DNA of 64,000 nucleotides from Kutzneria chonburiensis (lineage in GTDB: Bacteria; Actinomycetota; Actinomycetes; Mycobacteriales; Pseudonocardiaceae), in NCBI RefSeq assembly GCF_028622115.1, contig NZ_CP097263.1, positions 2,852,001 to 2,916,000 on the forward strand, in the 5' to 3' direction. The stretch's first letter is position 1, and every line of letters begins with the position of its first letter. The notes under the pieces were generated by a model. It made no database searches. It was not told the DNA's origin and was given only the letters and a program-made list of their open reading frames with translations. Shown here piece after piece: positions 5,961 through 61,508 of this stretch. The position numbers were made by a program, and so were the translations under genes.

Positions 5961-6122
5961 CGGCCCTGTCTCGCAGAGGGGTGTGTCGCGTTCCGGCCTT
6001 TAGACGCCCGCACGCGCCCGCCCTCGGTCGCGCTATTCGTCAGGCATGGTGATCACGGCAGTACACGAGGCATCGAGACAGCCGCACTGCACCACCCCCG
6101 GCTGCGTAATTGGGAAGCCGAG

Positions 6123-6491
6123 CTACTTGGCCGGTCTGGAGGACGACATCGCGGCCAACACCGGGATGGCGGCGATCTTCTCGGGCGTCAGGTGGTCCCA
6201 GATCAGGCCCACGGGCCGGCGGGACGGGCCGCAGGAGATGACCTCTGCGGGCGTGACGATCAGGTCGACGCTGAAATCGTGCTCGGTCTCCGGCAGGTCG
6301 TCATCGACGACCTGCCGGTCGTTCACGACAGTGACGATCGTGGTGTTCGACCTGATCAGCCCAGCCTCCTGACGCAGGGCGACCTCGAGGCCCGCCACGA
6401 CGGCGTGTCCGACACCGTCCGGTCCGATCTCGCACCTCCGATGCGGGAACACCATGGCAATCTCACGGAGTTCACCGTCGCCGCCGGCCAT
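6123..6491 (-). pseudogene. 5-formyltetrahydrofolate cyclo-ligase-like protein, 3' fragment
   Basis: Only the C-terminal third is present: GLEVALRQEAGLI, NTTIVTVVNDRQVVDDDLP, ETEHDFSVDLIVTPAEVI, RRPVGLIWDHLTPEKIAAIP. This is the conserved tail of an actinobacterial COG0212 (cyclo-ligase) paralogue. The first ~130 residues, including the ATP-binding part, are missing. The reading frame before about residue 35 has no family resemblance, so the apparent start is accidental. Confidence 0.6.
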
Positions 6492-6718
6492 TGGGCGTCG
6501 CTCGGACGCGCCAGCGAGGTCAGCGCGGTAATCGAACGCTGGCTGGCCGCGACCGGCCAGCGCTGGCCGGCATCTCGGTGGAGACCCTGCGCAAGATCGA
6601 GACCGATTGGGTGCTGACGCCCGCGTTCTTCACCGTGGCCGCCGTAGCCGAGGCGGTCGGGCTGTCGCTGGACGCGCTGCACGGTGAACTGGACGGCAGC
6701 AGACCGCTCAGCGCCTGA
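6491..6718 (+). pseudogene. XRE-family regulator, 3' remnant
   Basis: The recognisable part is ALAGISVETLRKIE, TPAFFTVAAVAEAVG and LSLDALHGEL, the second half of an XRE helix-turn-helix domain. The first helices are absent and the sequence before residue 25 is unrelated. It abuts the truncated folate gene on the opposite strand, so a rearrangement joined two broken genes here. It ends convergently against the immunity candidate at 6708. Confidence 0.45.
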
Positions 6719-7115
6719 CCACTGTCCAGCCGTCCGCATAGCCCAGTTCGAACCGGTCTGCGATGCCGAGGGCATCAAGGACGGCAAGCACCCCCGCGGC
6801 GCGAACGGCGGAGGCGGCGATGTCGGCCATGTTCAGTTCGGCCTCGACGATGGACACGGTCAGCCCGCCTGTGTCGATGCCTTCCGCGGCAGCAAGACGC
6901 AGCCCCTCGCAAATGCCGTCCTGCGCCGCGTCGACGAACTCCTGCTCCACGCCGGGCTGGACCGAGTAACGGTCGTCGGGGCGCACCGACCAGACCACTT
7001 CAGGCGGGTGCGAACCGTCCGACGTGATGACCTCGACCGCGACCTGGCCGAAGTTGCCCACCCCGTTCTTCTGCCGCTTCAGCCGGTACCGGCCGTGCGA
7101 GCTGGTTTTGCTCAC
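6708..7115 (-). CDS. Putative immunity protein for the RHS toxin
   Basis: This 135-residue soluble protein starts with GTG at 7115, and that codon overlaps the TGA of the RHS gene (GTGA), so translation is probably coupled. It begins with a basic tail (MSKTSSHGRYRLKRQKNG) and has a compact alpha/beta appearance with GICEGLRLAA, GGLTVSIVEAELNM and AVRAAGVLAVLDALG. No immunity family was identified with certainty. The call rests mainly on position: a small gene directly after a polymorphic toxin C terminus is normally its immunity partner. Confidence 0.55.
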   Translation of the reverse strand: MSKTSSHGRYRLKRQKNGVGNFGQVAVEVITSDGSHPPEVVWSVRPDDRYSVQPGVEQEFVDAAQDGICEGLRLAAAEGIDTGGLTVSIVEAELNMADIAASAVRAAGVLAVLDALGIADRFELGYADGWTVVRR

Positions 7116-10100
7116 GGTGCCCTCCGCGTGTGGAAATGGCCGTAGACACCGGCACGGAAGTAGTTCTCGACACCGTAGCGACCCGTCATGCGGCGCACGT
7201 GATCGTATCCGTGATTGCCGCCCGAGTTCCAGATGTCGGTGGCGGTGTCGTCGTCCATCTTGGTCAAATCGGCGGACTTGAGGCGGCCGTAGTCCTCCTC
7301 GGAGATGCGGTGTTCGAGGACGCTCACGTCGGCACCCTTGGCCTGCTGGCCCGCCAGGTACTTTTCGGCGTCCTCACGGGTTTCCCAGGTGTACAGGCCA
7401 GGCCCGAACTCAGCCCTTGCGGACCCGTGGCTGGTGCCGGTCGGCCACGGCTCGCCGCCGTTCTCGATGAGGCGACGCGCGTCGGCCTCGTCCTGCACGC
7501 TGTAGAACACCCGATAGGGCGCGAGCCCGACTGGATCCGACCACAGGAGTGGATTGCCCACATAGCTTCGTGGATTCGGCGCCGGTGCCAGGCCGAGCGG
7601 GTCGGCGCTGAGATAGCGACCGACCTCGGGGTCGTAGTGGCGGTAGAGGTTGTAGTGATGGCCCGTTTCCAGGTCGTGGTACTGGCCGGGGAACCGGATC
7701 GGACAGTAGGCGGCCTGTTGGAGTGGCGCGAGCACTGCACCCCACAGTGTGGTGTTCTGCCGCCACGCGAGATTGCCCGCCGCGTCGACCAACTCGGTCG
7801 GAGTGCCGACGATGTCGGTGACGATGGCGTAGAACCGCTCGTCGATCGAGTCCTGCTCGGCCTGGGTCACCGGCGTGGAACTGCCCGGACGGTGGTTCCA
7901 GGTCGTGCGGTGCCCGCTGGAATGGACCTGCTCGGCCAGCGTCGTGCCGTCCCATGTGAACAGCGTCTGCTCGGCCACCTGGTTGTCAGGGGTCAGGCGT
8001 AGCTTGGCGATACGGCGGCCGAGGGCGTCATAGACGTAGCGCCAGATGATCTGGTCGGGGGTGGTGACAGCGACAAGTCGATCTTCACAATTCCATAGAT
8101 AGCGCCAGCTTCGGGCCTGTCCGGACAGCGTGCGCGAGTGACGGGCGATCTGGCGGCCGTGGTCGTCGTGCTCGTACCGGGTGTCTCCAGCCGCCCGCAG
8201 CAGCGTTCCGGCGGCGGTGTGTGGACGCGCCGGCTCAGTAAGGTTGCCGCTGAGGTCGTATCCGTACCGCTCCTGGCGGTCAGCGGCGGCGACACCGGTG
8301 ACTCGTCCGAGAGGATCCAGCTCGAACTGCCGCACACCCGCCAACTGGTCGACGATGTTGGTGACCGCGCCGTCGTTCCGGTAGGTGTAGGCACGCCTCT
8401 GCACAAGGCGCTGCTGGTCGGCCGGGCCGGGCGCCACCAGAGCCTGGGTACGCAGGCGGTGGTTGTCGTCCCAGGTCTGGGACAGGGCTGCGACTCCGAA
8501 CCGCCATCCAGTCTGTCTGCCGGCCGGGTCATAGTCGAACGCCAGTTGCTGCGCGCCCGAGGTGAGGGCTGTCGGCCTGCCGGCTGCGTCGTAGCTCCAC
8601 AACGACCGCGCGCCGGCCGGAGTCACCCTGCTGACCCGGTGTCCCTGGGCGTCGAAGGTGCTGACGACGCTGCGTCCATCGGTGGCCTCCTGAACCACGC
8701 GTCCTAGTTGGTCGCGCGTGAACACGACATCCGCGTCAGCGTTGGTAGCCCGGATGAGCCTGCCGACCGCGTCGTAGGCGAACGTGGCCGTGCTGTCCTC
8801 GCTTCTGCGCGCAACGGTTCGGCCGAGGGCGTCCACTTCGAACGTGGTGGTCTGGCCGGCACCGTTGGTCTTGGCGATCAGCTGCCCTGCCGCGTCTCGG
8901 GCGTAGCCGATGGTCCGTCCGTCGAAATCGGTCTCGCTGATCAGGTTGCCGGCCGCGTCGTAGTCGTAGCGCCACACGAGACCGGCGGGGTTGGTCACGG
9001 AGACCAGCCTGAGCTCGGTGTCGTAGTTGAACACCGTGCGCGCACCAGTGGGGTCGATTTCGGCCACAGGCCGGTCGAAGCCGGCGAACTCGGTGCGCGT
9101 GACCGCGCCCGATGCGTCAACGTGCTCGACGAGGTTGCCCTCACCGTCGTACGACCAGCTTTCGACGGTGCCGTCAGGCGAGCTGCACCGGGCAAGTTTG
9201 CCGCTTGCGGTCCATTCCAGCCGCGAGACTCCGCCGACCGGATCACGCACAACGATCACCCGGCCGAACTCGTCACGCTCATAGTGGGCAACCGCGCCCA
9301 GCGGATCGGTGACGACAACCGGCAGACCCGCCTGGTTGCACTCGATGCGCGTGAGGCCGCCCAGAGGGTCGGTGACCGACGTCAGGTGGCGGGATTCGTC
9401 GTACTCATAGCGGGTGACCGCGCCTGCCGGGTCGGTCACCGCGATCACGTTGCCGACATCGTCGAAATCCCGCCGCCAGATGGCACCGTCCGGGTCGACC
9501 TGCGTCACCGGCAGGCGCAGGTGGTTGCGCTCGATGACCACCTGCGAGCCGTCGGGGCGGGTGACCCGCTGGAGGTCGCCGGCCTCGGTGTAGTCGAACC
9601 GTGTCGTCCTGCCCAACGGATCGGTGCGGGACAGCAGCCTGTCGTATCGGTCCCACTCGGAGGCGGTCCTGCCACTCGCCGGGTCGAAGACCGCCACAAC
9701 CTGCGACTTCTCGTTGAGGTGATAGCGGGTGACGTGGCCGAGCGAGTCGGTCGCGGTGGTGACCAACTGCTCCCGGTCGAACTCCATCGTGCAGTTGAGC
9801 TGGCCGCCCGCACCCTCGGCGAAAACACACCGGCCGCCGCTGTCGTAGTGGTAGCGGTACCACATGTCGTTGCGGTCGACCCATTCGGTGAGCCGGCCGT
9901 CAGCGTCGTAGCTGAACCGCAGCGAGTGGCCTGCGGCGTCGATCACCTCGGTGAGCTGACGGCTCTCGTAGGCGAATCGCACGAACGGTTGGCCGGCAAC
10001 CGACAACCCGGTGATCAGACCGTCCACGGTGTCGACGGCGACTCGGTAACCGCCTGAGTGTCGGATCTCGGTCAGGGTGCCACCGGTTGTGCGGTCGAAG

Positions 10101-15417: not shown

Positions 15418-15774
15418 CCGTTCCAACGTGACAAGGACAACAGCAATTGAGGTGGTGGTAAACAGCCAATTTAGTCTGTTGATTCGCGATGTTCGCCGAC
15501 TCGATCAGCACCCGACTCGTTGTTACGCTCGTTCGAACGCAGTGATCGACACGAACGGCCGGCGCTTTCACCAACCCAGGACCCTGCTGGATTCAATGCG
15601 CCGGTTGTGGACGCTTCCGCTCGACAGGCACGGCCAGGAACGGGCTGGCGTGTCGGTTCCCCGGCACACCAGCCCGGCCACCGCGCTCACACCCGGGCCG
15701 TCGCTGAAGCACCGGCCACCACGTCCGAGCACCTACCCGGACGACCGTCGCCGCCCACGGAGCCTCCCATAGAC

Positions 15775-17040
15775 ATGCCGCACACTTCTCCCGCACAGCG
15801 GACCCCGCTCACCCCGGACCAGCGCAACGCCTTCCTGGCCGCGCTGCTCGGCTGGATGATGGACGCCTTCGACTACTTCATCGTGATCTTCGTGTACGCC
15901 GACATCGCGGCCGAGTTCCGCGTGTCGCTGACCCAGATGGCTTTCGTCACCGCGGCCACGCTGCTCATGCGCCCGGTGGGCGCGCTGCTGTTCGGTCTGT
16001 GGGCCGACCGCGTCGGACGGCGCGTCCCGGTTCTGGTGGACGTCGCCTTCTACTCGATCGTCGGCTTCCTGTGCGCGTTCGCGCCGAACTTCACCGTGCT
16101 GTTCATCCTGCGCCTGCTCTACGGCATCGGCATGGGCGGCGAGTGGGGCCTCGGCGCCGCCCTGGCCATGGAGAAGATTCCCGCCCAGCGCTGCGGATTC
16201 TTCTCCGGCATCCTCCAGCAGGGATACGCCCTCGGCTACCTGCTCGCCTCCGTGGCCACGCTGCTGGTCGTCAACCTCGGCGGCCTCGGCTGGCGCTGGC
16301 TGTTCGCGCTGAGCATCCTGCCGGCCTTCGTCAGCCTGCTGATCCGCAGCCGGCTCAGCGAGTCCGAGGTGTGGGCGGACACCCGTGAGCACATGCGCGC
16401 CACCAACACCTCGGTCAAGTCCGTGCTGATGAACAAGGCCGTGCTGCGCCGGTTCTCCTATCTAGTCGTGCTGATGACCGCCTTCTGCTGGCTCAGCCAC
16501 GGACCGCAGGACATCTACCCGACCTTCCTCAAGTCCACCGACCACGGCGGTACTGGACTCTCCGCGAGCACGACGACCACCATCGCGATCATCTTCAACT
16601 TCGGGGCCCTGATCGGCGGCTTCGTCTTCGGCAGCCTGTCCCCAACGCTACGGCCGCCGCTACACCGCCGCGTTCTGCGCGGCGCTGGGCCTGCCCGTGC
16701 TGCCGATCTTCGCCTACTCCACCACGGCCGGCATGGTCTGCCTCGGCGCGTTCCTCATGCAGATCGTCATCCAGGGCACCTGGTCGATCATCCCGGCCCA
16801 CCTGACCGAGATGTCCCCGCCGTCCATCCGCGGCCTCTACCCCGGCGTCACCTACCAGCTCGGTAACTGCCTGGCCGCCTTCAACCTGCCCATCCAGGAG
16901 ACGCCGTCCACCGCCTACGGCTACCCGTTCGCACTGGTTTCCACGATGGTGCCGGTGTTCATCTCGGTCATCGTCCTGCTGCTGATCAGCAAGGAAGCCA
17001 AGGACATCGACTTCGGCCACGCCGATCCAACTGCCGCGAC
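15775..17040 (+). pseudogene. MFS transporter (organic acid/sialate:H+ symporter type), frameshifted
   Basis: From ATG 15775 the first ~290 residues show MFS landmarks: GWMMDAFDYFIVIFVYADI, LFGLWADRVGRRVPVL (motif A), LLYGIGMGGEWGLGAALAME and LSESEVWADT. Near 16640 an extra C in a run shifts the frame; [17 protein letters not shown] and the last helices ([35 protein letters not shown]) continue in the next frame. The second frame has no stop where the protein should end ([12 protein letters not shown]) and runs on antisense to the E1 gene, so the 3' end was also altered. It resembles lactate or sialate transporters of the SHS family. Nonfunctional unless the lesions are sequence errors. Confidence 0.65.
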
Positions 17041-17059: not shown

Positions 17060-18502
17060 TCATGCGCCGGGCCGAGCCTGCTCGGCCCGGCGCCGCCAGA
17101 TCGCCAGCGCCGGGTTGGTCGGGGCGCATGCGGGGCAGCTCGGGTCTCGTCCGAGCGGCACGGCGCCGTTGGCCGAGGACGTCGGCTTGCGGAACTGGAA
17201 GGTGGCGTTGTTGACGCTCGCTCCGTCTGTCGTGAGGTCGCGCCCGAGCTCGGTCTTGATGGTCTCGGCCGCCAGCAGCACGCCGGCCATGACCGACGTG
17301 AAGCCGACCGCGAACTGCGTCGGCACGTTCGATTCCGCCGTCCTACGCAGACTCTGGATCAGCCGGTTGCCCACCTCGTCGCATTGGCCACGGCCCAGCC
17401 ATTGAACGACATCCCGCTCGGCGACACCGACATCGAGCGCATGCCGAGCGATCGCCTCGGGCCCGGCGTCACGGAGTCGGGTGCGCAGCTCGTCGTCGCC
17501 GACGAGTGCCTCGGGCGGGTTGTAGCAACGCAGGCAAGCACCGACTCCGGGCGGCCCGGCACGCAGCACTTCCGCACGCAGGTCGCGGGTGCTCCCGGAC
17601 AGGATGGTCGCGACGTAGAGGTTCTGCAGCGCCTCTCGGGCCCGATTGCGGTCGACCGCAGACACGAGGACGCGAGGACGGGTGCGGACTTGCAGGCACG
17701 CTTCGAGCCGGCCGTCGCAGGCCTGCCAGGCGATCGAGCTGTCCCCGGCGATGCGCGCGGCCTCGTCCGCCTTTCCCATGCCGACGCTGTCCCGCCCGAA
17801 CAGTGGGCAGCGGTTGAGGTTGGTGATGTCGACGCCCTTCTCGTCCGCGTCGGCGACGACGATGTCGCCGGCCAGGCCTGGCGTCGCCCACAAGGTGTGG
17901 ATCCAGGTGCTGCCGACCGCCCCCACACCGGCCAGGGCGACGCCCGACAGGTCGAGGTCGGCCACATTGGCCGGCGCGTCGGCTGACGGGTGGTCGGCAA
18001 GGCACTGCTGCCAGCAGTCCCAGCCACGGATACCTGTCGCGGCCGCCACGTGCTCCGGGAGCCGAGCGCGGAGGTACACCTCGCCGACGGCGAGGGCCGC
18101 CGCCACGTACGATCCGACAGGCAGGTCGCTCACGCGCTCGGGGAAGGTCATCGGCTGGTCCGCGACGCCGCCCCACCAGCCATGGCCCAGCACGTAGCGG
18201 CAGCCGGGGTGTTCCTCTGCGCCGACGACCAGGACTGTGACGCCGTCGGCGGGTACCGCGACGAGGTCGACCGGGGCCGCGCCGATCGCGTTCCCGCCGA
18301 TGATCAGGGCGTCCGCCAGGGGCACGGTGCGCGGAGCCAGCGGCACCACCCGACCGGCCAGGGGCACGTCGAGCGGGCAGACGACGTGCACGGCGGAGAC
18401 GATCCCGTCGGTGCGGGCCAGGAGGTCGACCAGCATCCACGCCGTGTGCTGGGCAGCGGCTAGTCGCGCGGTCGCCGGTGCCACGACCACGGCCACCTCC
18501 AC
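17060..18502 (-). CDS. E1-like ThiF-family activating enzyme
   Basis: From a GTG at 18502, overlapping the JAMM gene by 43 bp, the product has 480 residues. The N-terminal ~185 residues are a nonstandard alpha/beta region ([14 protein letters not shown]). The adenylation domain follows with [12 protein letters not shown] (GxGxxGS, ~192-198), [18 protein letters not shown] (ATP-ribose Asp and the N-L-N-R motif) and [12 protein letters not shown]. Two Cys pairs (CLRC near 355, CPAC near the C terminus) suggest a zinc knuckle. The reaction expected of the family is adenylation and thioester capture of the Ubl C terminus, encoded three genes upstream. A thiamine or molybdopterin role is unlikely beside an E2-like and a JAMM gene. 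The start codon is uncertain; the adenylation domain is not. Confidence 0.85.
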
Positions 18503-19062
18503 CGCGCGGGCGTCGGCGAACGGTCGGAGGCCGCCTCGGAGATCGCCTTCATGTCGGTCGGAGATGCGGTCCACAGCGGCCTCCTGAGATCGATCACCCC
18601 GGGGAGCACGCGCACGATCTCGTCGATGCGCGGCCCGGTGACGCGCCGCCAACCGGCCGGCTCGCGCAGGTGGATTCCGGACTGCCACAGCGTGGGCCGC
18701 CCGGCGGCATGCCACGGCAGGACGATCGACAGCGCGCCGGCGCGCTGGCTGTAGGCGCGACGGTCGTCGATGTGGGAGTGGTCGACGAAGTCGTTGCCGT
18801 GCGTGTGCACCTGGGCCAGACGCACGACTCCGAGGGCCTCGAAGTGCTCGCCGGCGCGTTCCATCGCGTCGACGGGAACGGTGAAGTTGCCCGGACTGGT
18901 GACGGCATCGGGAATGACCACGGTGGTGGCGAAGCCCTGGAGCGTGCCGTCGCGGTCGCGGTGGCGGATCCCATCGAGGTAGGCGACATGTTCGTGGCCG
19001 GCGGGCGCGGTGGCGAAGCGGTCGAGCAGGAGCTGCCACACCGGGTCAGGAATCGTCAGCAC
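18460..19062 (-). CDS. JAMM/MPN metalloprotease (deubiquitinase-like)
   Basis: This 200-residue protein starts with GTG at 19062, eight bases after ACGGAGG. The complete JAMM zinc signature is present: Glu24 in GHEHVAYL, then HTHGNDFVDHSHID at 86-99 (H-x-H-x7-S-x2-D). By family knowledge such enzymes cleave isopeptide or C-terminal peptide bonds of ubiquitin-like proteins. Here it could mature the Ubl tail, remove conjugates, or both. The gene overlaps the E2 gene by 17 bp and the E1 gene by 43 bp, so the products are probably made in fixed proportion. The C-terminal 30 residues are basic and Trp-rich, probably because that stretch doubles as the E1 coding sequence. Confidence 0.85.
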   Translation of the reverse strand: MLTIPDPVWQLLLDRFATAPAGHEHVAYLDGIRHRDRDGTLQGFATTVVIPDAVTSPGNFTVPVDAMERAGEHFEALGVVRLAQVHTHGNDFVDHSHIDDRRAYSQRAGALSIVLPWHAAGRPTLWQSGIHLREPAGWRRVTGPRIDEIVRVLPGVIDLRRPLWTASPTDMKAISEAASDRSPTPARWRWPWSWHRRPRD

Positions 19063-19624
19063 CGGAAGGTCCTCCGTAGTTCGCGCTGTCGAGGGCCTCC
19101 TGGATGCGGTCAAGGGTGGCGGCAAGCGTGTGACGGCCCTGCCGCCAGCGCTGGCTCTCGGTGGGGTTGTGCCCGGAGATGTAGTACTCGAACGTCGCCG
19201 AACAGCACACCAGCTGGCGTGGCGAGCTGTACGCGTCCTCGCTGGGGAACTGGAACTGGTAGGAGTCGTGCACGGCGAACCAGGACAGGCCCTCCGCCAA
19301 CGGGAACCACCGACCGCCTTTGCGCGCCTGCTTCCATTGGTCGAGGCTCGTTCCCTCGACGGCGCCGTTGGCCGGCGGGCACACGAAGGAGGTCGTCGGC
19401 GGGTAGCTGTCGTAGTACTCGGCGCCGAGCAGCACGTAGTACAGGTCCTTCTCGCCGGTCGCGCGGGTGGCCGCCACCGTGACGACGGCATGCAGCGGGT
19501 CGATCGGGGTGAAGACCCAGCCCTGCGCCCGGGCCTGCGCACTGGCGCTGACCCGGGCGATGTGGCTGGCGAACACCGCCGCGGCGACCTCCTCGTCCGC
19601 GGGGACGGGCAGCGGGGTCGTCAC
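19046..19624 (-). CDS. E2-like (UBC-fold) conjugating protein
   Basis: The 192-residue product starts with GTG at 19624, three bases after the Ubl stop. DSYPPTTSFVCPP at 73-84 resembles the YP..PP..F..P segment of E2 enzymes. SPRQLVCCSATFEYYISGH around 134-152 offers Cys140 or Cys141 as the thioester cysteine, in the style of bacterial E2-like proteins. The helix at the end (TLAATLDRIQEAL) fits the fold. It would receive the Ubl from the E1-like enzyme. The E2 call rests on these motifs together with the gene order Ubl-E2-JAMM-E1; either alone would be weaker. Confidence 0.7.
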   Translation of the reverse strand: MTTPLPVPADEEVAAAVFASHIARVSASAQARAQGWVFTPIDPLHAVVTVAATRATGEKDLYYVLLGAEYYDSYPPTTSFVCPPANGAVEGTSLDQWKQARKGGRWFPLAEGLSWFAVHDSYQFQFPSEDAYSSPRQLVCCSATFEYYISGHNPTESQRWRQGRHTLAATLDRIQEALDSANYGGPSGADDS

Positions 19625-19627
19625 CGG

Positions 19628-19957
19628 TCAGGCCCCGCCCGTGTCCCCGACGAACGACCAGTGCAGGCCCGGGCAGTGTCCCTGCTCGATGTAGCGCTCG
19701 AGCGTCTCGTCGGCGAACTGGAACACGTCCTGGCCGTTCTGCCGGCAGGTGAGCCGGTCGTCGGGCTGCCGGTCGACCCCGAACTCGGTGTACATGATGT
19801 CGATCACTACGGCCAGCCGCTTGTTGACCGGCACAAGCAGCCTGATCGTGTCGCCCGAGTCGCGGTTGTCGACCTTGACTACGCGGGTGTGCCTGGTCTC
19901 GTCCTCGACGACGACCTCGTCGTCGAGGACCTCGATGTTGTCCATGTGGAGGGACAT
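19628..19957 (-). CDS. Ubiquitin-like modifier (beta-grasp) ending in Gly-Gly-Ala
   Basis: The ATG at 19957 has AAGGAGG eight bases upstream; earlier GTG codons lie inside that ribosome-binding site. The 109-residue protein has an acidic leader (IEVLDDEVVVEDE) of about 35 residues and then a beta-grasp-like unit: TIRLLVPVNKRLAVVIDIMY, DDRLTCRQNGQDVFQF, ADETLERYIEQG, LHWSFVG. It ends DTGGA. A di-Gly one residue from the end is expected of a Ubl precursor trimmed by a protease before activation. It is the first gene of the operon. The beta-grasp call is by eye; context supports it strongly. Confidence 0.7.
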   Translation of the reverse strand: MSLHMDNIEVLDDEVVVEDETRHTRVVKVDNRDSGDTIRLLVPVNKRLAVVIDIMYTEFGVDRQPDDRLTCRQNGQDVFQFADETLERYIEQGHCPGLHWSFVGDTGGA

Positions 19958-20067
19958 GGTCACCACCTCCTTGTTCTCTGTTCCCGTGGAGCCGTTCTCT
20001 ATCAGGAACGATCCGAGGGTACCTGGTACCGTTCACAACCGAGAACTCGACACGCCCAAGAGGGAAC
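19958..20067. promoter_or_regulatory. Divergent promoter/operator between the Ubl operon and the peptidase-XRE pair
   Basis: This 110-bp region separates two outward-facing operons. It contains GTTCTC at 19973-19978 and again at 19994-19999, the inverse GAGAAC at 20041-20046, and GGTACCTGGTACC at 20018-20030. Repeats of this sort are plausible sites for the XRE protein encoded at 20933, which with the ImmA/IrrE peptidase would control both directions. Promoter boxes could not be fixed by eye. Confidence 0.5.
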
Positions 20068-20943
20068 ATGCGCTCGGCGCTCCTGTCCGACCTGGAACTA
20101 GCCCGGCTGAGCCGACCCGGGACACCCGATGCTCAGCTGGTGGTGGAGCTCGCCCAGCGGACGCTCGACGAGGTCACGATGGAGCTGCCGATCAACCACG
20201 AGATCGTCGCCTCGATGCGCGGCGTCGTCCGCATCGAGGAGGCGCCGATCCCGGTGTCCGGCTTCCTCAGCGTCACCGCCGACGGTCTGGTGATCACGCT
20301 TAGGATCACCGACAGCCGCGGCCGGCGGCGCTTCACCGTCTTCCACGAGGTGATGCACACGTTCCTGCCCGGCTTCGGAACTCAGGTGCAGTACCGGTGC
20401 ACCCCCGGCGACCAGCCGATGACGCGCGACACCGGCCTGGAGCAGCTCTGCGACCTCGGGGCAGCCGAACTGATGTTCCCGCGCCGGGCATTCACCGCAG
20501 ACCTCGCGGGGCGGCGCGCCGACCTCGACCTCGTCGAAGACCTGGCCGCCCGCTACGACGGCAGCGCCGAGGCCACCGCACGGCGCGTCGCCTCCCTCCA
20601 CGCCGACCGAACGATGCTGCTGGTGCTTGTACCCGGTCGCAAGCCGAGCGCACCAAGGGAACGACCACAACTCAGGGTGCGGTACGCCAAGACCGGCGGT
20701 TCCTGGCCGTTCGTGCCGCGTCACAAGTCGGTCCCGGAGGACGGGGTCTTCGGCCGCGCCCTCCGCGGCGAAATGATCGACGAGATAGTCTCGTCGCTCG
20801 GCGCGCTGACCAGTACCGCCATCACCGACGTGCACGTCAGCGCCCGCTCGTATCCGTACGTCGACGACCGAGGGGAACAGCAGATGCGCGTTCTCGCGCT
20901 GATCACGCCCGCCACGTCGCACCGCACCCGTCATGGCGACTGA
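20068..20943 (+). CDS. ImmA/IrrE-type (M78) metallopeptidase
   Basis: The 291-residue protein carries FTVFHEVMHTFLPG, with HEVMH at 93-97 as the zincin motif. GLEQLCDLGAAELMFPRRAF follows, in the position of the third zinc ligand in IrrE-like enzymes, and a C-terminal domain of about 100 residues. By family knowledge ImmA/IrrE peptidases cleave a partner XRE repressor after a stress signal. The next gene, overlapping by 11 bp, is an XRE protein, and the divergent operon is the Ubl system. The natural reading is that damage or infection activates this protease and derepresses the locus. The start at 20068 has AGAGGGA upstream. Confidence 0.85.
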   Translation: MRSALLSDLELARLSRPGTPDAQLVVELAQRTLDEVTMELPINHEIVASMRGVVRIEEAPIPVSGFLSVTADGLVITLRITDSRGRRRFTVFHEVMHTFLPGFGTQVQYRCTPGDQPMTRDTGLEQLCDLGAAELMFPRRAFTADLAGRRADLDLVEDLAARYDGSAEATARRVASLHADRTMLLVLVPGRKPSAPRERPQLRVRYAKTGGSWPFVPRHKSVPEDGVFGRALRGEMIDEIVSSLGALTSTAITDVHVSARSYPYVDDRGEQQMRVLALITPATSHRTRHGD

Positions 20944-21373
20944 ATCGCCCAGCACCGGCTCCTCCCGCCCTACAGAGGACGTCGGTGTCGGCGCGCGAAT
21001 CCGTCGCTACCGCGAGGAGCGGAAACTGAGCCTCAGTCAGCTGGCTGAGGACGCTGGCGTGAGCAAGGGCTACCTTTCCGCGCTGGAGAACGCCAGCGGT
21101 TCACACACCAAGCGCCCGTCTGCCGAAACCTTGTACGCCATCGCCAAGGTGCTTGGCGTGACCATGTCGGATCTGCTTGGTCGCAAGCTCCTCACCGCAG
21201 CCAGCGCGGAAATTCCGCGCAGCCTGCTCGATTTCGCCGCGCAGGACGGTGTCCCCGAGGCCGACGTGCAGATGCTCAGCACGATCCAGTTCCGCGGCGA
21301 CGCTCCCCGCACAGTTGACCGCTGGCGATACATCTACACCGCCATCCGCACCAGCGAGGCGATCGACGGCTGA
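20933..21373 (+). CDS. XRE-family transcriptional regulator
   Basis: This 146-residue protein has a standard helix-turn-helix at 17-85: IRRYREERKLSLSQLAEDAG, VSKGYLSALEN, TLYAIAKVLGVTMSDLLG. The C-terminal ~55 residues (FAAQDGVPEADVQML, APRTVDRWRYIYTAI) form a second small domain. It overlaps the peptidase gene by 11 bp. It probably binds the divergent operator at 19958-20067 and is the substrate of the upstream peptidase, as in ImmA-ImmR pairs. Both roles are inferred from gene order. Confidence 0.85.
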   Translation: MATESPSTGSSRPTEDVGVGARIRRYREERKLSLSQLAEDAGVSKGYLSALENASGSHTKRPSAETLYAIAKVLGVTMSDLLGRKLLTAASAEIPRSLLDFAAQDGVPEADVQMLSTIQFRGDAPRTVDRWRYIYTAIRTSEAIDG

Positions 21374-21445: not shown

Positions 21446-22309
21446 CTACAGGACCGCCCTCTGGCCCCGCCCGGCGATGCTCTCCTCCAAGTCGTTGAGC
21501 ACAGCGTTCACCGGGACCCAGCACATGTTCACGGTGTCGGCATTGGGCGTGAAGTCGTGCTCCAGTTGCTGGCGGGGATGGATGTAGTTGCGGAAGTCGC
21601 GTACGGGGTGAATGAAGTTCCGCGCGTCCAGCTCAATGAGCCGCTTCTCGTGGGCGGTGTCGATTAGCAGCGCGAGTCCGGCCCGACTCGCCGGCACCTT
21701 GCGGCCGTCCTGGCCGCGGAATCCGGCGGTGACCAGCTCGGGGAACTGCTCCTTCAGCGCGGAGAACAGCAAACCCTCGATGAAACTGCCGATGCCGAAG
21801 ACCGCGAGCAGGTACGCCCCAGCGGCTTGGGCGGCTCGGCACTGCGCGATCCGGTCGATCAACAGGTCGATCACCTGCTGATCGGACAGCAGGGCGCGGA
21901 GCCGCTGCTCAACCTCGGGCGGGGCGCCGTACACCGGCTGCTCCGACCCGTCGGTGAGCTCGCCGAGCACGGGCCGGCCGCCGCTGTAGGTGATCACCAC
22001 ACGCTCGAACTCGAGGATGGAATTGAGCTCGTTCCGGAACGCCTCGGCCACTGGCATGCCACCGTCGTATTCGAGCGGATCGCAGACGCGGCAAAGGAAC
22101 CGCTCGATGTCTGGTCGATTGTCGGCCCGGTCCGCGAGGGCGTCGGTCAGCCACGGAATCCGGGGTGAGCCGTCGTATTCCGGCACATCACTCCAGCCCG
22201 CGCTGCGCAGCAGCCGTTCCAACTCGAACCCGCGGCGCTCCCCCGCACCGCCGATATCGACGACGCGCTGGGCGACCCGTTCCAACGTCTTGCCATCCAA
22301 CGGAAACAT
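21446..22309 (-). CDS. Helicase-associated protein of unknown function (RNYIHP motif)
   Basis: The ATG shares one base with the stop of the helicase gene (TGATG), so the pair is translationally coupled. The 287-residue product is mostly helical, with ERFLCRVCDPLEY, LSDQQVIDLLIDRIA, AYLLAVFGIGSFIEGLLFSA and LIDTAHEKRLIELDARNFI. It ends with HPVRDFRNYIHPRQQLEHD. The R-x6-H spacing in RDFRNYIH recalls HEPN-type nuclease motifs but is not proof. It may be the regulatory or effector partner of the helicase-nuclease. Confidence 0.55.
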   Translation of the reverse strand: MFPLDGKTLERVAQRVVDIGGAGERRGFELERLLRSAGWSDVPEYDGSPRIPWLTDALADRADNRPDIERFLCRVCDPLEYDGGMPVAEAFRNELNSILEFERVVITYSGGRPVLGELTDGSEQPVYGAPPEVEQRLRALLSDQQVIDLLIDRIAQCRAAQAAGAYLLAVFGIGSFIEGLLFSALKEQFPELVTAGFRGQDGRKVPASRAGLALLIDTAHEKRLIELDARNFIHPVRDFRNYIHPRQQLEHDFTPNADTVNMCWVPVNAVLNDLEESIAGRGQRAVL

Positions 22310-25300
22310 CAGTTCCCCTCCCCCGCTGCCGACTTCTCGACCTCGTCGAGCGCGATGGACACCCGCTCGACGATCCGCTTGCCCCGTCGCTGAAACCCGA
22401 GCGCCTCCCGGACCTGCTCGATGCGCGTCTCCCGATCGAGAGCCAGACCGTCGGACAGGACCCACCGAGCTATCGCAATGAGCTCGGCCGGCCCATACTC
22501 GTCGATCTTTGCCCGGCGCGGCACCCGCGGCCGGGGCCCGCGTTCCACCTTCGGCACGGGCACCTCGACGCGTTCAACCGTCGGTCGCACCGGATCTGGC
22601 TGCCGATCAGCGTCGGCGACAGCCTCGCGCCAGCGCTCGACGATCCGCGCGGTCTGTTGCTCTGGATCACTGAACCACTCGCTCGCCCACACCCGATGGA
22701 ACCGCCAGCCGAGCCGTTCGAGATGGTCCTGCCGCAGTCGGTCCCGATCGCGCGCGGACTCCGACAGGTGATAGCGCTCGCCGTCCGCCTCAACGGCCAG
22801 CACCATCAGCCCGGGGCGCTCGGGGTGGATCAGCGCGAAGTCGATGCGGTAGCCGGACACCCCCCACTGCGGCACGACCGGGACGTTCGCCGCCAGCAGC
22901 GCCTCGTGGATGCTGCGCTCGAACCCATTGAGCGGCTGCGTATCTGCACGACCAATGGCGGCCGGTCCACCACCGCCAGCCGCGAACTCCAAGAACTTCC
23001 TGAGCAGCCTCGGCCCCTCCTTGTGCCAGTTGGGAGCCATGTCGTGGTGAGTGAAGGCGCTGACCACGCACATCCGGCGGCGGGCCCGGGTCACAGCGAC
23101 GTTGAGCCGCCGCTCACCACCATCATTGTTGAGTGGCCCGAAACCCATCGGCAGCCGGCCGTCCGCCCCCTTGGAGAAGCCAATACTGAGGATGATCGCG
23201 TCCCGTTCGTCGCCCTGCACCCGCTCCAGGCTCTTGACGAACAACCGCTTCCCCGGCCCCTGCATCCGCGCGGTGAACTCGGCCAGCTCCGGATGGCGCT
23301 GGCCCGCCTGCCGCAACGCGCCTTCGATACGATCGGCGTTCTTCATGTTCATCGTGATCACGCCGAGCGTGTCCTCCGGGTGCTGTCGCACGTGCTGGAG
23401 CACCAGGTCGACGACACGGCTGATCTCCTCGTCGGCGGCGCCGCCAGCGCCGGGCGCGGCAATGCCGTCCACCACTTCATGCCGCAGTGGACTCTCCTCG
23501 TCGCGGCCAGGGAAGGTGACGAGTTGGTCACTGTAGATCTCATGGTTGGAGAACGCGATCAGTCGCTCGTCCGCGCTGCGGTAGTGCCATTTCAGCGTGT
23601 ACGTCCGTGGGATCAGCGCGGCCAGGCACTTCAGGATCGACTCGAAGTCGCCCACCTGCGGCGTCACTGCCTGCTGCTCGTCGTCCTCGTCGTCCTCGCC
23701 CGCCCCGCCGCGCAGAGTCTGCCGGAAGAACATGGTCGGCGGCAGCTGCTTGTCGTCGCCGGCGACCACGAGCTGCTCGCCACGCATGATGGCGGCCATC
23801 GCGTCGTACGGCTCGATCTGGCTGGCCTCGTCGAAGACGACCAGGTCGAACAGCCGCTGTGCCGGCAGCAGCCGGCTGACGACGATCGGGGACATTGCCC
23901 AACATGGCCTCGCCGCCAGTAGGACGTCCGGAGCCTTGGCGACCAGCTTGCGGATGGGCATGTGGCCGCGTTTGCGCTTGGCCTCACCGAGAACCAGCGC
24001 GCTCTGCTGCCGATTGCTATCGCGCGCCGCGGCCAGCCGCTCGGCAACGCCACGGCGGATTCGTTGGGCGTTCAACCGGAAGTGATCGGTGTCGGCCTGC
24101 CGGAACTCCGCAACGATGCGGTCGTGCTGTGTGCCGGTGAACTGGGCGAGGTAGGGCAGTCGCAGCTTGAATTCGTGCAACAGAGAGCTGTACCAGCAGG
24201 AGCGGAGCATGCGCAGCGCCTCGTCGGCGTCGGCGTCGCGCTCGACCAACTCGTCCAGCAGTTGACCCAACCCCAGAGCCTCCAACTGATCGGTGATCGT
24301 GTTGAGCCTGGGCATCCGGTACAGGGTGTTCACGTCGCCGGTCAGCTCGTCGAGGGTCGAGGAAATCTTCTCCTCCGGTAGCTGCTCGGGTTCCTCGATG
24401 CGAGCGCACATGGCGACGGCGGCCAGCTGGTCGCGGACCTCCGTGAACCGCCCGAGGACTTCACCCAGTCCGAGGACGGCCGCCGGCACGGCGCCTTCCA
24501 GCGCGAGCTGCCGCCAGCGGTTGAGCTGCCAAGACGCGGCCAGCAGTTCGTCGTGCATCCGGCCACGGTCGCACTTGCCGACCTTGCGCATCAGGCGGAT
24601 CTGCTTTCGCACGCCCCGGCGTGCCCACCACCCGAGTTGGCGCGGATGCCGGGCACGCCAGGCCCGATCTCCAGTGGCGAGGCAGAAATCCTCCAGCGGC
24701 GCGGAGAAGATCTCCTCGCCGTAGTACGAGACCGTCTTCTCCACGGCACCGAGAAGCCCCAAGATGTCCCGCCAGCCCGCCAGATCGGACGCTTTGCGCA
24801 GGCCGGCCCGCCCGACCAGCGCGCGCAGCTCGGACTGCGCGTTGCGCCACGACCGCGCGTGTAGCTCGGTGAGCTTCGCGTGGACCTCTTCGACGTCGCG
24901 CATGTTCCTGATCTCGCAACGCGACCAGGGCAAGTCTCCGCGCCGGACCGCGAGGCCGCCCATACTGACGAAATTGACCAGGTCGTTCTCCACGCGGTTC
25001 AGCGTGTCCCCGCTGAGCGCGTTGAGTTGAGAACCGCGCAGCACGTGGCCGATGCGGCTTGCGGCCGGCAGTTCGAGCATCGCGCTGTAGGCCTGGTACG
25101 CGCTGATCCCCCACGGCGCACGTGGGCTGTGCAACTCGTGGTCGTGCTGAATGACCTGCCGCCGCCGTTCGGCCAGGCGATCGTGCAGCCCGTTTACCTG
25201 CGGCGGCAACTCCTTGCTGGCTCGTTCCAAGGACTCGGCGACCTGCTCGGCCACGTGGCGCCGGCCGAGCGTCTGCTGATGCAGGTCCAGCACCAGGTGA

Positions 25301-26358
25301 TGCAAGTCGACCTGCTGCAGGCGCTCGGTAACAGCCTCGATCGCGGCTCGCTTCTCGGTGACGAACAGGATGCGCTTCCCGGCCGCCACTGCCGAGGCGA
25401 TGATGTTGGCAATCGTCTGGCTCTTGCCCGTGCCCGGCGGCCCCTGGATCACGACATGCTGACCAGACAGCACGGCGAACAGTGCTTGCTGCTGCGAGGA
25501 ATCGGCATCCAGGACCAGGAACTCGTCCTTGGGCTGCACGCTGTCCGGCGAGCCCGTACGGTGCGCCGCAGCCACCGCCTGCAATCCGTCGATCGCTGGC
25601 GCGAATCCAGCAGCCGCAGCGATCACGTCGTGGCTGGCCAACAGGTCGGTCGCGGCCTTGAGGTCCTTGACCATGGGCAGATTCTCGAAGCTGAAGATGC
25701 CGGCCAGCACCCGCTCCTCGAGCTCGGCGGTGAGGCTCTGCTCGCGCAGTAGGTCCTCGATCGCACCGAACAGGCGCCGCACTTGCTCGGCCGGGCCGTC
25801 GGCCTCGTCAAGCAGGCCGTTGAGACGCTCCTGCGTGCGGTCAAGATCGAGGTCCACGCCGTACTGCCGGTTCAGCGCGTACAGCAGCACCGGATTGACT
25901 TCGGCGTCGCCGACCAGGTCGATTGTGAAATCGTTCTCCGCGGCGGTCCTGCTGTCGATGGCGATCGCCTGCAACACCAGCGGTGCCCGCAACGGAGGAA
26001 CCGGCGACGTTCCCCTGGTGGCTGGCGGCGGCAGGCGGAGCAGCCCCCGGGCGATTCGCCCGACCTCGACGCCCTGTTCCTCTTCCAACTGGAGCATCTT
26101 GCGCCGGAGGTTACGTGCCCTGATGCAGGCTGCCGCGTGGGCATCCTTCGCCGGTAGCAGCGCCGACAACTTCGTCTTGCGGCCGCCGAGCAGTTGCCCG
26201 AGCGAGTCCGCCGACGCCGCGGTCAGATCAAGAGTGATCGTCTTAGTGTCCTGATAGTGCAATAGTGTGTTCTGATGCCCGAGGTCGATCAACTCGTCGG
26301 CCCACTGATCGGCTTTGACCCGCACCACGTCCAAGCGACTGGCAAAACTCGTGGTCAC
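22309..26358 (-). CDS. DUF4011-type superfamily 1 helicase with C-terminal DUF559/Vsr-like nuclease
   Basis: Taking the GTG at 26358 as start (ADELIDLGHQNTLLHYQD opens the DUF4011 region), the protein has 1349 residues. The N-terminal domain is followed by QGPPGTGKSQTIANI (Walker A, ~303) and RILFVTEKRAAIEAV. A long helical insert comes next, then LFDLVVFDEASQIEP (Walker B, ~836), VVAGDDKQLPPT, RSADERLIAFSN and NVAVTRARRRMCVV. Residues ~1150-1230 hold a PD-(D/E)XK-type unit (YRIDFALIHPERPGLMVLAVEADG). This architecture is common in phage-defence helicases. It lies just beyond the Ubl regulator and is coupled to 21446-22309. An in-frame extension to 26484 is unlikely to be translated. Confidence 0.8.
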   Translation of the reverse strand: MTTSFASRLDVVRVKADQWADELIDLGHQNTLLHYQDTKTITLDLTAASADSLGQLLGGRKTKLSALLPAKDAHAAACIRARNLRRKMLQLEEEQGVEVGRIARGLLRLPPPATRGTSPVPPLRAPLVLQAIAIDSRTAAENDFTIDLVGDAEVNPVLLYALNRQYGVDLDLDRTQERLNGLLDEADGPAEQVRRLFGAIEDLLREQSLTAELEERVLAGIFSFENLPMVKDLKAATDLLASHDVIAAAAGFAPAIDGLQAVAAAHRTGSPDSVQPKDEFLVLDADSSQQQALFAVLSGQHVVIQGPPGTGKSQTIANIIASAVAAGKRILFVTEKRAAIEAVTERLQQVDLHHLVLDLHQQTLGRRHVAEQVAESLERASKELPPQVNGLHDRLAERRRQVIQHDHELHSPRAPWGISAYQAYSAMLELPAASRIGHVLRGSQLNALSGDTLNRVENDLVNFVSMGGLAVRRGDLPWSRCEIRNMRDVEEVHAKLTELHARSWRNAQSELRALVGRAGLRKASDLAGWRDILGLLGAVEKTVSYYGEEIFSAPLEDFCLATGDRAWRARHPRQLGWWARRGVRKQIRLMRKVGKCDRGRMHDELLAASWQLNRWRQLALEGAVPAAVLGLGEVLGRFTEVRDQLAAVAMCARIEEPEQLPEEKISSTLDELTGDVNTLYRMPRLNTITDQLEALGLGQLLDELVERDADADEALRMLRSCWYSSLLHEFKLRLPYLAQFTGTQHDRIVAEFRQADTDHFRLNAQRIRRGVAERLAAARDSNRQQSALVLGEAKRKRGHMPIRKLVAKAPDVLLAARPCWAMSPIVVSRLLPAQRLFDLVVFDEASQIEPYDAMAAIMRGEQLVVAGDDKQLPPTMFFRQTLRGGAGEDDEDDEQQAVTPQVGDFESILKCLAALIPRTYTLKWHYRSADERLIAFSNHEIYSDQLVTFPGRDEESPLRHEVVDGIAAPGAGGAADEEISRVVDLVLQHVRQHPEDTLGVITMNMKNADRIEGALRQAGQRHPELAEFTARMQGPGKRLFVKSLERVQGDERDAIILSIGFSKGADGRLPMGFGPLNNDGGERRLNVAVTRARRRMCVVSAFTHHDMAPNWHKEGPRLLRKFLEFAAGGGGPAAIGRADTQPLNGFERSIHEALLAANVPVVPQWGVSGYRIDFALIHPERPGLMVLAVEADGERYHLSESARDRDRLRQDHLERLGWRFHRVWASEWFSDPEQQTARIVERWREAVADADRQPDPVRPTVERVEVPVPKVERGPRPRVPRRAKIDEYGPAELIAIARWVLSDGLALDRETRIEQVREALGFQRRGKRIVERVSIALDEVEKSAAGEGN

Positions 26359-26560
26359 GCCCGATGTCCCCTTCTCCAAGGTCCCACCACCCGGCCGGGA
26401 CAGTGCCCGACGCCCACCAGTCCGATGGCGAGCCAGACAGTCTCGCCGAAACCCAGGCGAACAGTCTGCTTCCATTCGGGGCATAACTGTCAGCCATTCG
26501 GGTAAGACCCGGCCTGCCGCCTAGCAAGCTCGCACGCCCACCCACCAGCAAGTACCGCAA

Positions 26561-29824: not shown

Positions 29825-32132
29825 CAGACGTCTCCTCGAGTTCGTCCTGTCACGGCACCGGAAACGGCTCCGGTGAACACGGTCAGCACCCACGAGCACC
29901 AGAACACGAGCACTCCCAGCTCTCGTCCGAGCACGAGGCCGACGACCACCGCCGCCACGACAGCGATGATCAGGCCCGCCACCAACGCCTTCGCCGCGCC
30001 CAGCAGTGCGCCGGACAACGGTGTCCGGGGCAGGAGGAGCCCGGCCAGAAGCGAAGCTGTGCCCGCCAGCAACACCGTTCCCACCAGCACACCGTCCAAG
30101 AGGGACGAACCCGAGGCCGCACCGATCCCCGCCACCACCGCGAAGGATCCACCCGCGATCGCCGTGCCCACCACCGCGCGCCCGAACCGGAGGTGGTCCC
30201 CGACCGTCACCGGGCGGTTCCGCACGGGCAACGCTGGCACGGCCACGATCCAGTCGCCGGTGGACGGAACTCCGCTCACCATCGCCTCGACCTCGGCACG
30301 CAGACCACGGGCCGCGGCGGCGAACTCGTCCTGCTCGGTCGGAGGTCGTCGTCTCGTCTCCTCCGCGAGCGCCGCCAGCAGCACGACCACGACGTCCAGC
30401 GCGGGCTGGTGCACACCGCGATCCTGGTCTGTGAGCGCGCGGAACCAGGCAGTCCTGCGGGCACGGCGCGTTGTCAGCTCGCGAGCCCTCCGGTTCAGGT
30501 TGCGACGGTACACCGGGTCGAGAACGGCCCTGAGCACCATGTCGCCCAGCCGTTGACGCTCCGGCAGCCGGCTGAGGTCGCCGAGCGCGTCCCTGGCGTA
30601 GTCCTCCGCCATCCGGTGCCAGCGCTCCCATTGGGCGGCGACCAGATCGAGTCCTCCCTGGCCGGAAAGCCTGGCGAGAGCGCGCAACGCACCGCTGTTC
30701 AGCAACGCGTCGAGAGCCGCCCGTGCCGCGGTCTCACCGGACTCGGACTCGGCGGCGAGCTGCGCCAGTCCTGGCCTGTCGACCACGAACCCGCGGAACC
30801 GCGGCTCAGCCGAGGCGTCGAGTCGCACCATCAGCTCGCAGACACACCGGTCGACCGGCGAACGCGGCTGGACGAAGTGCTCGTCGACGTCGTCCAGCGC
30901 CGAACGCATGTCGTCCGACACGGACGACGCCCATTCCAGCAGCGATGACCAGCCGTCGCCCAGCACGAGTTCGCCTGCGGCCTGCCAGTTGGCGGCCATC
31001 GCCGCGGCGAGCTGACGGGGCCGGGTGATCCGCGCACCCGCGAACACAAACTCCCCTCCCGCCTGTTCGTCCGGCCCGATATGCTCGTCGATCGCGGGCT
31101 CGGCGCCTTCCAGCCACTCCTGGACCTGGCGGGCTCCCCACCGGTTCTCCGGCCTCCAGGTCAGCAGCCCCGGAGCAGGGAGCGCCAGCGCACCGGAACG
31201 ACGTCGTCGATCGGGACCGGCGAGCTGTTCACCTGCTCGTTGATCTCGTCGTCGGACAGCATCAGACCATTGGGGCCGACCTGGAACGGGTGGTACCCCT
31301 GCAGCAGTTCGATCAGCGTGATGCCGAGCGCCCACCAGTCGATCGCGGGTGATCTCGCCTGCCGGAACAGCTCGGGGGCGGCGTAGGCGGGCGTCATCGC
31401 ACCAGTCGACCGTTCCCTGGTGAACGCGTGCACCGCGGACACACCGAAATCGCTGACGCACATCCTCAGCGGCTCCACCTCGCGCAGGAGGATGTTGGCC
31501 GGCTTGATGTCCCCGTGGACCAGCGCCCGCGCGCCGCTGTTGGCAGCGGCGGACACGCGGTCGTGCAGGTACCCCAGAGCCCCGGTCACCTGGACGAGCA
31601 CAACCTCGGCCTCATCGGTGGTCAGCGGGCGGCCGAGCCCGTGCACGTGGTCCAGCAGCGAGCCGTGGGGCAGGTGGGGCATCACCTCGTAGTCCCGCAG
31701 GCCGTCGGTCTCGGCGGCGAGCAACGAGATGACCCGGTCGTCGTGTTCGCCGGCGAACCGCCAGAGCTCCCACACGTCCTCGACGCCGTCCCGTGCCTGC
31801 CGGTAGATCTTCAGCACGACATCGTGTTCCTGATCCCAGCGACCTCGCAACAGCAGCGCCTGTCCTCCTCGCTCCGACATGGGCTGCCGGTCGGAGAACC
31901 TGGCCGCGATGCCGGGCGGGAGCTGGTCTCCCGGTTGCCGCGCCTCCTCTGGCCCGGGCAGGTCCGACGTCTCCCGGTTGGTGCCGAGGTGAGGCCTGTC
32001 CGCGGTCGGCCTGTCGGACCTGTCACCGTCCGGTCCGGGCAGGTCGGCCGTCAGCCGCGCCGACGAGGGTCCCGCTGGAAGATCCCTCGTCTCGCGGTCC
32101 GACGGCGGGCCTGCGGCTGTCACGACACCCAC
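29806..32132 (-). pseudogene. Ser/Thr protein kinase with helical and membrane tail, split by a frameshift
   Basis: The 5' part (32132 to TGA at 31161) has a Pro/Asp-rich leader of ~75 residues, then kinase motifs: DVVLKIYRQ with the Lys, LVHGDIKPANILL (catalytic loop, HGD for HRD), CVSDFGVSA, AYAAPELFRQ, AIDWWALGITLIELLQGYHP. It stops at RSLLRGC. The C-lobe resumes one base out of register as GLLTWRPENRWGARQVQEWL. It is followed by ~400 helical residues and four membrane segments near the end (FAVVAGIGAA, GTVLLAGTASLLAGLL, LVAGLIIAVVAAVVVGLVL, VLVFWCSWVLTVFTG). One inserted base near 31165-31175 restores a ~775-residue membrane-anchored kinase. Whether the gene is dead or the base is a read error cannot be told here. 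Confidence 0.75.
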
Positions 32133-49746: not shown

Positions 49747-49791
49747 GGGAGGTGGTTGGCGGACGGTCCGGCCGTCCGTCAACCACGTGCT

Positions 49792-60518: not shown

Positions 60519-60530
60519 GCCCGACCTCAC

Positions 60531-61400: not shown

Positions 61401-61508
61401 CGTGTGGCAGCGGATGGACGACCCGCTCCCAACGTGGGAGGACCTCGACACGCATCATCACGCCATGCCGCACTGAAGGGCCTCCCGTAAGACAGTGCGG
61501 CGACGGCG

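Follow-up and report, generated by a model that had tools for sequence, protein, structure and literature searches.

A divergent Bil-type operon in Kutzneria chonburiensis

We analysed a 64,000-nucleotide stretch of Kutzneria chonburiensis DNA (contig NZ_CP097263.1, positions 2,852,001 to 2,916,000; hereafter the window, in whose own numbering coordinates are given) and found that a minus-strand run of four genes, arranged head to tail from 19957 to 17060, most likely encodes a divergent Bil-type ubiquitin-like conjugation machinery. The genes encode, in transcriptional order, a ubiquitin-like modifier (Ubl), an E2-like protein, a JAMM protease and an E1, which is the A-B-C-D order of Bil-type operons. 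The gene models, set from start codons and upstream sequence, are as follows.

19628 to 19957, minus strand: Ubl (BilA-like), 109 aa, ATG start; one beta-grasp domain; C-terminus TGGA
19046 to 19624, minus strand: E2-like protein (BilB-like), 192 aa, GTG start; YPP, C140/C141, E146, Y148, H152
18460 to 19062, minus strand: JAMM protease (BilC-like), 200 aa, GTG start; E24, H86xH88x7S96x2D99
17060 to 18574, minus strand: E1 (BilD-like), 504 aa, GTG start; N-terminal domain, adenylation domain, candidate catalytic C398

The Ubl stop and the E2-like start are separated by a gap of three bases, the E2-like and JAMM genes overlap by 17 bases, and the JAMM and E1 frames by 115 bases (18460-18574). 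Upstream of the Ubl ATG lies AAGGAGGTGG, upstream of the JAMM GTG lies GGAGG, and the E1 start at 18574 is preceded by AGGAGG and followed by an N-terminal DRH that aligns with the rhizobial E1 starts; no clear ribosome-binding sequence was found upstream of the E2-like GTG. The original prediction, of a tightly packed Ubl/E2/JAMM/E1 operon with its own modifier gene, is upheld by the gene models, motifs and family matches and by the dedicated Ubl gene, and all the motifs it had listed (the GGA end, YPP, LVCC, H-x-H-x7-S-x2-D, GxGxxGS and NLNR) are present.

The E1 and the JAMM protease

The E1 matched Pfam ThiF (E value 3.3e-14), PADLOC BilD (1.9e-15, with the translated protein), the solved BilD 8tyz in the PDB (2e-5) and, by BLASTP, the E1 of a rhizobial operon from Sinorhizobium fredii GR64 (1e-27). 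Its motifs are GVGAVGS at residues 216-222 and NLNR at 252-255; it carries four zinc-type cysteines (347, 350, 480 and 483), and C398 is aligned with the Bil cysteine. The JAMM protein, in turn, matched PADLOC BilC (2.6e-8) and the GR64 JAMM (BLASTP, 2e-8), while Pfam returned nothing for it at E 1.

Since the E1 belongs to the ThiF family and has weak NCBIfam matches to ThiF and MoeB, it might instead serve a sulfur-transfer or cofactor pathway, with a ThiS/MoaD-like carrier whose GG tail it would activate. Its scores of 22.3 and 20.8 bits, however, fall far below the respective NCBIfam cut-offs of 275 and 449, so that this is no ordinary sulfur-carrier enzyme. It also has the N-terminal domain and the cysteine aligned with that of Bil, its E2 and JAMM partners recur from locus to locus, and the annotated neighbour tables hold no thiamine or molybdopterin synthesis genes (the remaining loci are unannotated), company that the original prediction had named as grounds for abandoning it. 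We regard a sulfur-transfer role as highly improbable.

The Ubl

In the Ubl, an acidic N-terminal tail of about 22 residues precedes the beta-grasp domain, and the C-terminal GG is followed by A. The predicted structure, built from a three-row alignment, has a mean predicted local distance difference test score (pLDDT) of 73, with ten-residue blocks at 75-86 over residues 21-100 and the N-terminal tail at low confidence; its topology is strand-strand-helix-strand-strand-helix-strand. When compared with the PDB by Foldseek, the model gave 15 matches at E ≤ 0.001, and the 50 best rows were mainly ubiquitin, ubiquitin variants, SUMO and NEDD8, together with other beta-grasp proteins such as FERM and SHANK. 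The original prediction had been ready to fall if this small protein were not beta-grasp, and the predicted model is beta-grasp.

At the sequence level, the C-terminal part of the four rhizobial tandem Ubls aligns with the window Ubl, with TGGA invariant. On a profile of that part, the window Ubl scored 12.0 bits, compared to 7.3 for the best shuffle (1802 of 2000 shuffles scored), and without the TGGA tail it still scored 11.6 bits, a value reached by 0 of the 1873 scored shuffles. Its best family match was NifU_N, below the cut-off (17.5 vs 22), and Pfam PF14452 (Multi_ubiq) did not match it.

The E2-like protein

The E2-like protein carries YPP at residues 74-76 and an LVCC motif that includes C140/C141. 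Aligned by hhalign, a profile of the window protein and four rhizobial E2s matched two rows of the CEHH/BilB family with 88.3% probability (pairwise E 2.8e-6) and eight CEHH rows with 89.4%, whereas JAMM against E2 profiles, used as a negative control, gave 0.5%. In the profile alignment C140 falls on the BilB catalytic cysteine and E146 on its Glu. The window E2 alone scored 30.8 bits on the profile of the four rhizobial E2s (best shuffle 5.5; 687 of 1000 shuffles scored) and 22.8 bits on that of eight CEHH E2s (best shuffle 10.1), and BLASTP aligned it with the GR64 E2 at 5e-8. Among the CEHH rows, that of locus L009 finds the solved BilB chain 8tyz_C with an E value of 1.6e-52; the rhizobial E2 and E1, each alone, found no match among PDB sequences. 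The profile comparisons indicate that the E2-like protein is homologous to BilB, with C140 as the putative catalytic cysteine.

Because the E2 structure model is of low confidence, this assignment rests on profile homology. Of the structural checks suggested at the outset, the Ubl fold was thus recovered by a model, and what speaks for the UBC-like nature of the E2 is its profile homology to BilB. Membership in Pfam PF14455 (Metal_CEHH) was considered and rejected: it was the best match, yet at 12.3 bits against a cut-off of 25, and the motif differs from C-x5-E-x-H-x4-H.

Relatives, gene order and distribution

Searched with the E1, 72,556 plasmid records yielded two related operons, in S. 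fredii GR64 and Rhizobium sp. WYJ-E13, and an E1 alignment found two more in genome_contigs, in R. esperanzae and R. phaseoli. A single E1 found no close relative in genome_contigs, E1 or E2 alignments found no match in viral_contigs, and the E2 found none in plasmids. These four operons make up the rhizobial tandem-Ubl set (L003, on pSfreGR64b of GR64; L004, of WYJ-E13; L012 and L013). Their E1s are 27-30% identical to that of the window, their E2s have a CC-S-A-x-F-[EQ]-Y-Y motif in common with the window E2, and the Ubls of L003 and L004 each contain two Multi_ubiq matches (2e-21 and 1.7e-12). The annotated genes at the GR64 locus run ImmA - HTH (divergent) - multiubiquitin - hypothetical - Mov34 - ThiF, as in the window but with the two regulators in the opposite order.

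Further searches with the E1s of L009 and L006 matched 17 and 4 plasmid records; 7 of the former and 3 of the latter were retrieved, and in all we compared 18 distinct loci besides the window (L003, L004, L006, L009-L013 and L018-L027). These are not independent, because they were found by their E1s and several are close kin (L018/L019/L027; L004/L012). At 16 of the 18, Ubl, E2, JAMM and E1 stand in the order of the window, with the Ubl and E2 of L006 and L023-L025 assigned by position, size and alignment and the L006 Ubl having below-cut-off matches alone. Two loci depart from this: at L011 a look through the listed frames found no E2, and at L021 transposase sequence appears to interrupt the JAMM frame.

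A tree of nineteen E1s (558 columns) resolved CEHH single-Ubl (DUF2604) operons, CEHH tandem-Ubl operons, a group that includes haloarchaeal plasmids, L011 on its own and the rhizobial tandem-Ubl operons, which the window E1 joins with support of 98/95. L021, present by its E1 and with its other genes incomplete, sits with the CEHH tandem-Ubl operons. Placing the window E1 with the CEHH single-Ubl group, the CEHH tandem-Ubl group or the group that includes haloarchaeal plasmids was rejected by the approximately unbiased test (p-AU 0.0015, 0.0023 and 0.016, respectively), for alternatives picked after inspection of the tree.

Several of these loci have features of their own. At L006, L023, L024 and L025, two of them on haloarchaeal plasmids, the E1 is gapped at the catalytic-cysteine stretch and the E2 cysteine is kept; the E1 of L011, a Ubl-JAMM-E1 locus (5485-7594) in which the E2 gene was not found, is gapped at the same stretch. 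On p42a of Rhizobium etli (L020, 7265-8623), TIR-domain and caspase-family genes come next after the CEHH-type operon.

The operon is rare. The E2 search found it in one of 150 relatives, the E1 search in one of 396 genomes sampled across the phylum and a five-row E1 profile in one of 249 genomes of the order, each time in its own genome alone. A six-frame scan with the PADLOC BilD model gave matches in 4 of 396 genomes of the phylum, and PF14455 occurs in 2 of 396 sampled there.

Such scarcity raises the possibility that this is the remnant of a Bil-type operon, in decay or inactive. Its absence from the sampled relatives would fit this, as would the neighbouring transporter gene, apparently split between two frames, and the JAMM frame, which runs about 25 residues beyond the rhizobial end (its Arg-, Pro- and Trp-rich tail, past about residue 175, has no counterpart in the rhizobial JAMMs). 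Against this, none of the four frames is interrupted, and three of them are preceded by clear sequences resembling ribosome-binding sites. The aligned active-site residues have persisted in proteins that share 22-30% identity with their nearest relatives, which implies selection. A remnant is very unlikely.

Classification

Given its gene order and its homology to BilB, BilC and BilD, we classify the window operon as Bil-type. Several results weigh against this reading. In the E2, Tyr148 occupies the place of the first CEHH His, with H152 lying near the second; on the CEHH profile, two other non-CEHH E2s, those of the rhizobial locus L013 (9.6 bits) and the Mesorhizobium locus L023 (4.9), fall short of what the best shuffled window E2 attains; the AlphaFold2 model, from a three-row alignment, has a pLDDT of 34; and the E2 profile found no chain among PDB sequences even at E 10. 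Neither the Ubl nor the E2 has an above-cut-off match in Pfam, PADLOC or NCBIfam. BLASTP of the window Ubl against the GR64 Ubl is weak (0.016), and its sequence-level kinship to the single-Ubl DUF2604 Ubls was rejected at a profile match of 0.8%. The window Ubl has one domain, whereas BilA, in the available text of a 2024 review (PMC11354881), has two Ubl domains. In the tree, the window E1 sits on a long branch (1.63) marked as unsure, and in the six-frame scan the operon's own genome did not reach the 1e-8 threshold with PADLOC BilD (four of nine candidates scored).

The comparison with described systems nonetheless places the operon among Bil-type systems. The rhizobial multiubiquitin operons share its gene order, the TGGA tail of the Ubl, the CC-S-A-x-F-[EQ]-Y-Y motif of the E2, the E1 homology and, in L003, divergent HTH and ImmA genes. 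They differ in that their Ubls have two domains and about 240-250 aa, as against one domain in the window, and in L003 it is the HTH gene that adjoins the operon, whereas in the window it is the peptidase gene. No report of experiments on these operons came up. The CEHH-type Bil operons (NGR234-type: DUF2604, putative metal-binding, Mov34 and ThiF; the family of the solved E1/E2 8tyz) likewise share the four-gene order, homology to E1/BilD and JAMM/BilC, the E2 at profile level and, near L009 and L010, M78 regulators. Unlike the window, their E2s have the CEHH motif and match PF14455, their Ubls have no profile-level match to that of the window, and grouping with them in the E1 tree was rejected. 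One-domain Ubls (97-101 aa) also stand beside CEHH/BilB-type E2s at L018-L020 and L027, and thus we call the window operon Bil-type but not a strict ISG15-like Bil.

Gene clusters of E1, E2, JAB and Ubl were predicted in 2006 by Iyer, Burroughs and Aravind (PMC1779556), who distinguished operon types 6a-6e. In the available text of that paper, type 6c, based on an NGR234 megaplasmid, carries its E2-like domain on the E1 protein. Type 6e has 1-3 Ubl repeats and occurs in certain actinobacteria; in most cases its JAB and E1 are fused and its E2-like domain lacks the cysteine. The window lineage is not individually described in that text. With the Bub operons, in the available part of a recent report (PMC13373217, EMBO J 2026), the window operon shares a bacterial ubiquitination-like character and, for some of them, CapH+CapP neighbours. 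Among the titles and abstract openings that our literature search listed, none named the window lineage, which carries little weight, as key papers were outside its reach.

The chemistry of E1, E2 and JAB is also that of type II CBASS (cyclic-oligonucleotide-based anti-phage signalling system), and CapH and CapP, whose likenesses adjoin the operon, were named from CBASS, so that the window genes might belong to such a system and tag a CD-NTase. Type II CBASS, however, has an E1-E2 fusion and a CD-NTase, whereas in the window the E1 and E2 are separate genes, the Ubl has its own, and the whole genome lacks any SMODS match, in agreement with the original prediction that a CD-NTase is absent. In addition, the E1 matches the PADLOC E1-E2 model of CBASS at a weak 0.0065, as against 1.9e-15 for BilD. 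The chance that this is a CBASS is practically negligible.

Judged from sequence, then, the window operon is a deep, very divergent branch of known Bil-type systems and not a new kind. It is not a member of the strict two-Ubl Bil systems, nor of PF14455, Multi_ubiq, CBASS or ThiF/MoeB. Its variant traits are a one-domain Ubl in an otherwise tandem-Ubl lineage, a C-E-Y-H motif in the E2 and the depth of its divergence. The original prediction was right about kinship to described operons, but any separateness from Bil gave way to the BilD and BilC model matches and to the identical gene order at 16 of 18 loci.

Regulators, proposed mechanism and purpose

Facing the operon are two genes for an M78 peptidase and an HTH repressor, side by side and adjoining it as CapP/CapH regulators do, and overlapping each other by 11 bases.

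19958 to 20067, no strand: putative divergent promoter/operator region, 110 bases between the operon and the peptidase gene
20068 to 20943, plus strand: M78 (ImmA/IrrE) metallopeptidase with HEVMH, CapP-like; Pfam Peptidase_M78 2e-9, PADLOC capP 1.1e-22
20933 to 21373, plus strand: XRE/HTH_3 repressor, CapH-like; Pfam HTH_3 2.9e-15, PADLOC capH 2.6e-13

The Pfam and PADLOC matches confirm the pairing with a peptidase/XRE switch that had been claimed for the operon, but the pairing is recurrent: at least five of the 18 other loci have M78/ImmA genes nearby, as judged from Pfam or annotation (L003, L009, L010, L013 and L023; neighbours were scanned at some loci). The M78 protein of L013 has a weak HTH match, L004 and L012 have an HExxH protein without a Pfam match beside an HTH frame, and a WYL gene lies near L026. 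In the 110-base region, a promoter scan found no sigma-70-type site; an imperfect inverted repeat, GTTCTCTGTT/AACCGAGAAC, occupies 19973-19982 and 20037-20046, and the repeat region may act as the operator.

In the available text on Bub operons (PMC13373217), single-stranded DNA activates the CapP protease, which cuts CapH, and 219 of 544 Bub operons adjoin CapW or CapH+CapP. For Bil systems, the available text of the review describes how BilC trims BilA to a reactive glycine, how BilD adenylates BilA and carries it on a cysteine, and that BilB holds the CEHH catalytic cysteine (PMC11354881). By analogy with these systems we infer the catalytic steps, regulation, target and defence role of the window operon. 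The CapH-like repressor would silence the operon until cut by the CapP-like peptidase, itself activated by single-stranded DNA in infection or DNA damage. The JAMM protein would clip the final alanine of TGGA to leave a bare GG, the E1 would adenylate the Ubl and carry it as a thioester on C398, and the E2 would take it on C140 and pass it to a lysine of a protein; an E3 gene was not recognised. The JAMM protein could also undo the bond between Ubl and protein.

Bil reportedly tags phage tail proteins, a finding attributed to Hor et al. in 2024. We lean towards an anti-phage purpose for the window operon, which may tag phage proteins as other Bil systems do.

The main rival to this anti-phage reading is that the identical machinery, in an explanation that overlaps with ours, serves a general response to DNA damage or stress, its conjugates perhaps passing to a Pup-type proteasome. 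The CapP/CapH-like control suggests a damage trigger, and the genome contains a Pup gene (the search covered Pup, not Pup ligase or the proteasome). Nothing, however, links the window Ubl to the proteasome; the rare and patchy occurrence of the operon is not what one expects of a housekeeping stress system; and defence-like genes do occur in the window, in keeping with the defence setting originally proposed. A general stress response is thus somewhat unlikely.

A bolder proposal, which we consider doubtful, is that the window operon, together with its rhizobial relatives, represents a conjugation class of its own that has so far gone unrecognised, with a C-E/Q-Y-H rather than a C-E-H-H site in the E2. 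In this actinobacterium the class would work with a one-domain tag beside Pup, and one cell would thus house two unrelated protein-tagging systems, one of them switched on by DNA damage to mark phage or damaged proteins.

Surroundings of the operon

Convergent with the operon lies a major facilitator superfamily (MFS) transporter gene (15520-17040), apparently split between two frames, one at 15520-16866 (Pfam MFS_1, 9e-27) and one that starts at about 16697 and runs on. Beyond the regulators are a 339-aa protein without family matches (21446-22465) and, adjoining it, a PDC-S37-like helicase of 1391 aa with an MTES_1575 nuclease domain (22309-26484; PADLOC 3e-269). A cluster at 31161-35042 comprises kinase-like (mad6/PD-T4-6 matches), FHA, radical-SAM and AAA genes, and two CHAT-domain proteins and a caspase-domain protein lie within 15 kb of one another (39665-41674, 49756-51669 and 51679-54444). 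Near the end of the window, a JetD-like protein (61509-62936) stands beside proteins of 1111 and 294 aa without PADLOC matches; together (57195-63798) they are possibly a divergent Wadjet-type system. Near its start, a tRNA-Pro followed by an N-terminal phage-integrase fragment (2073-2725) possibly marks the edge of a genomic island.

Implications

Because the E2 and the Ubl have no above-cut-off match in Pfam, PADLOC or NCBIfam, a defence scan that uses these models would see two of the four proteins of this operon. As a divergent branch of Bil-type systems, the operon extends the known sequence range of bacterial ubiquitin-like conjugation. It also offers a compact four-protein system with its regulator, in which two questions become askable: how an E2 may function without the first CEHH histidine, and whether such a system coexists with Pup.

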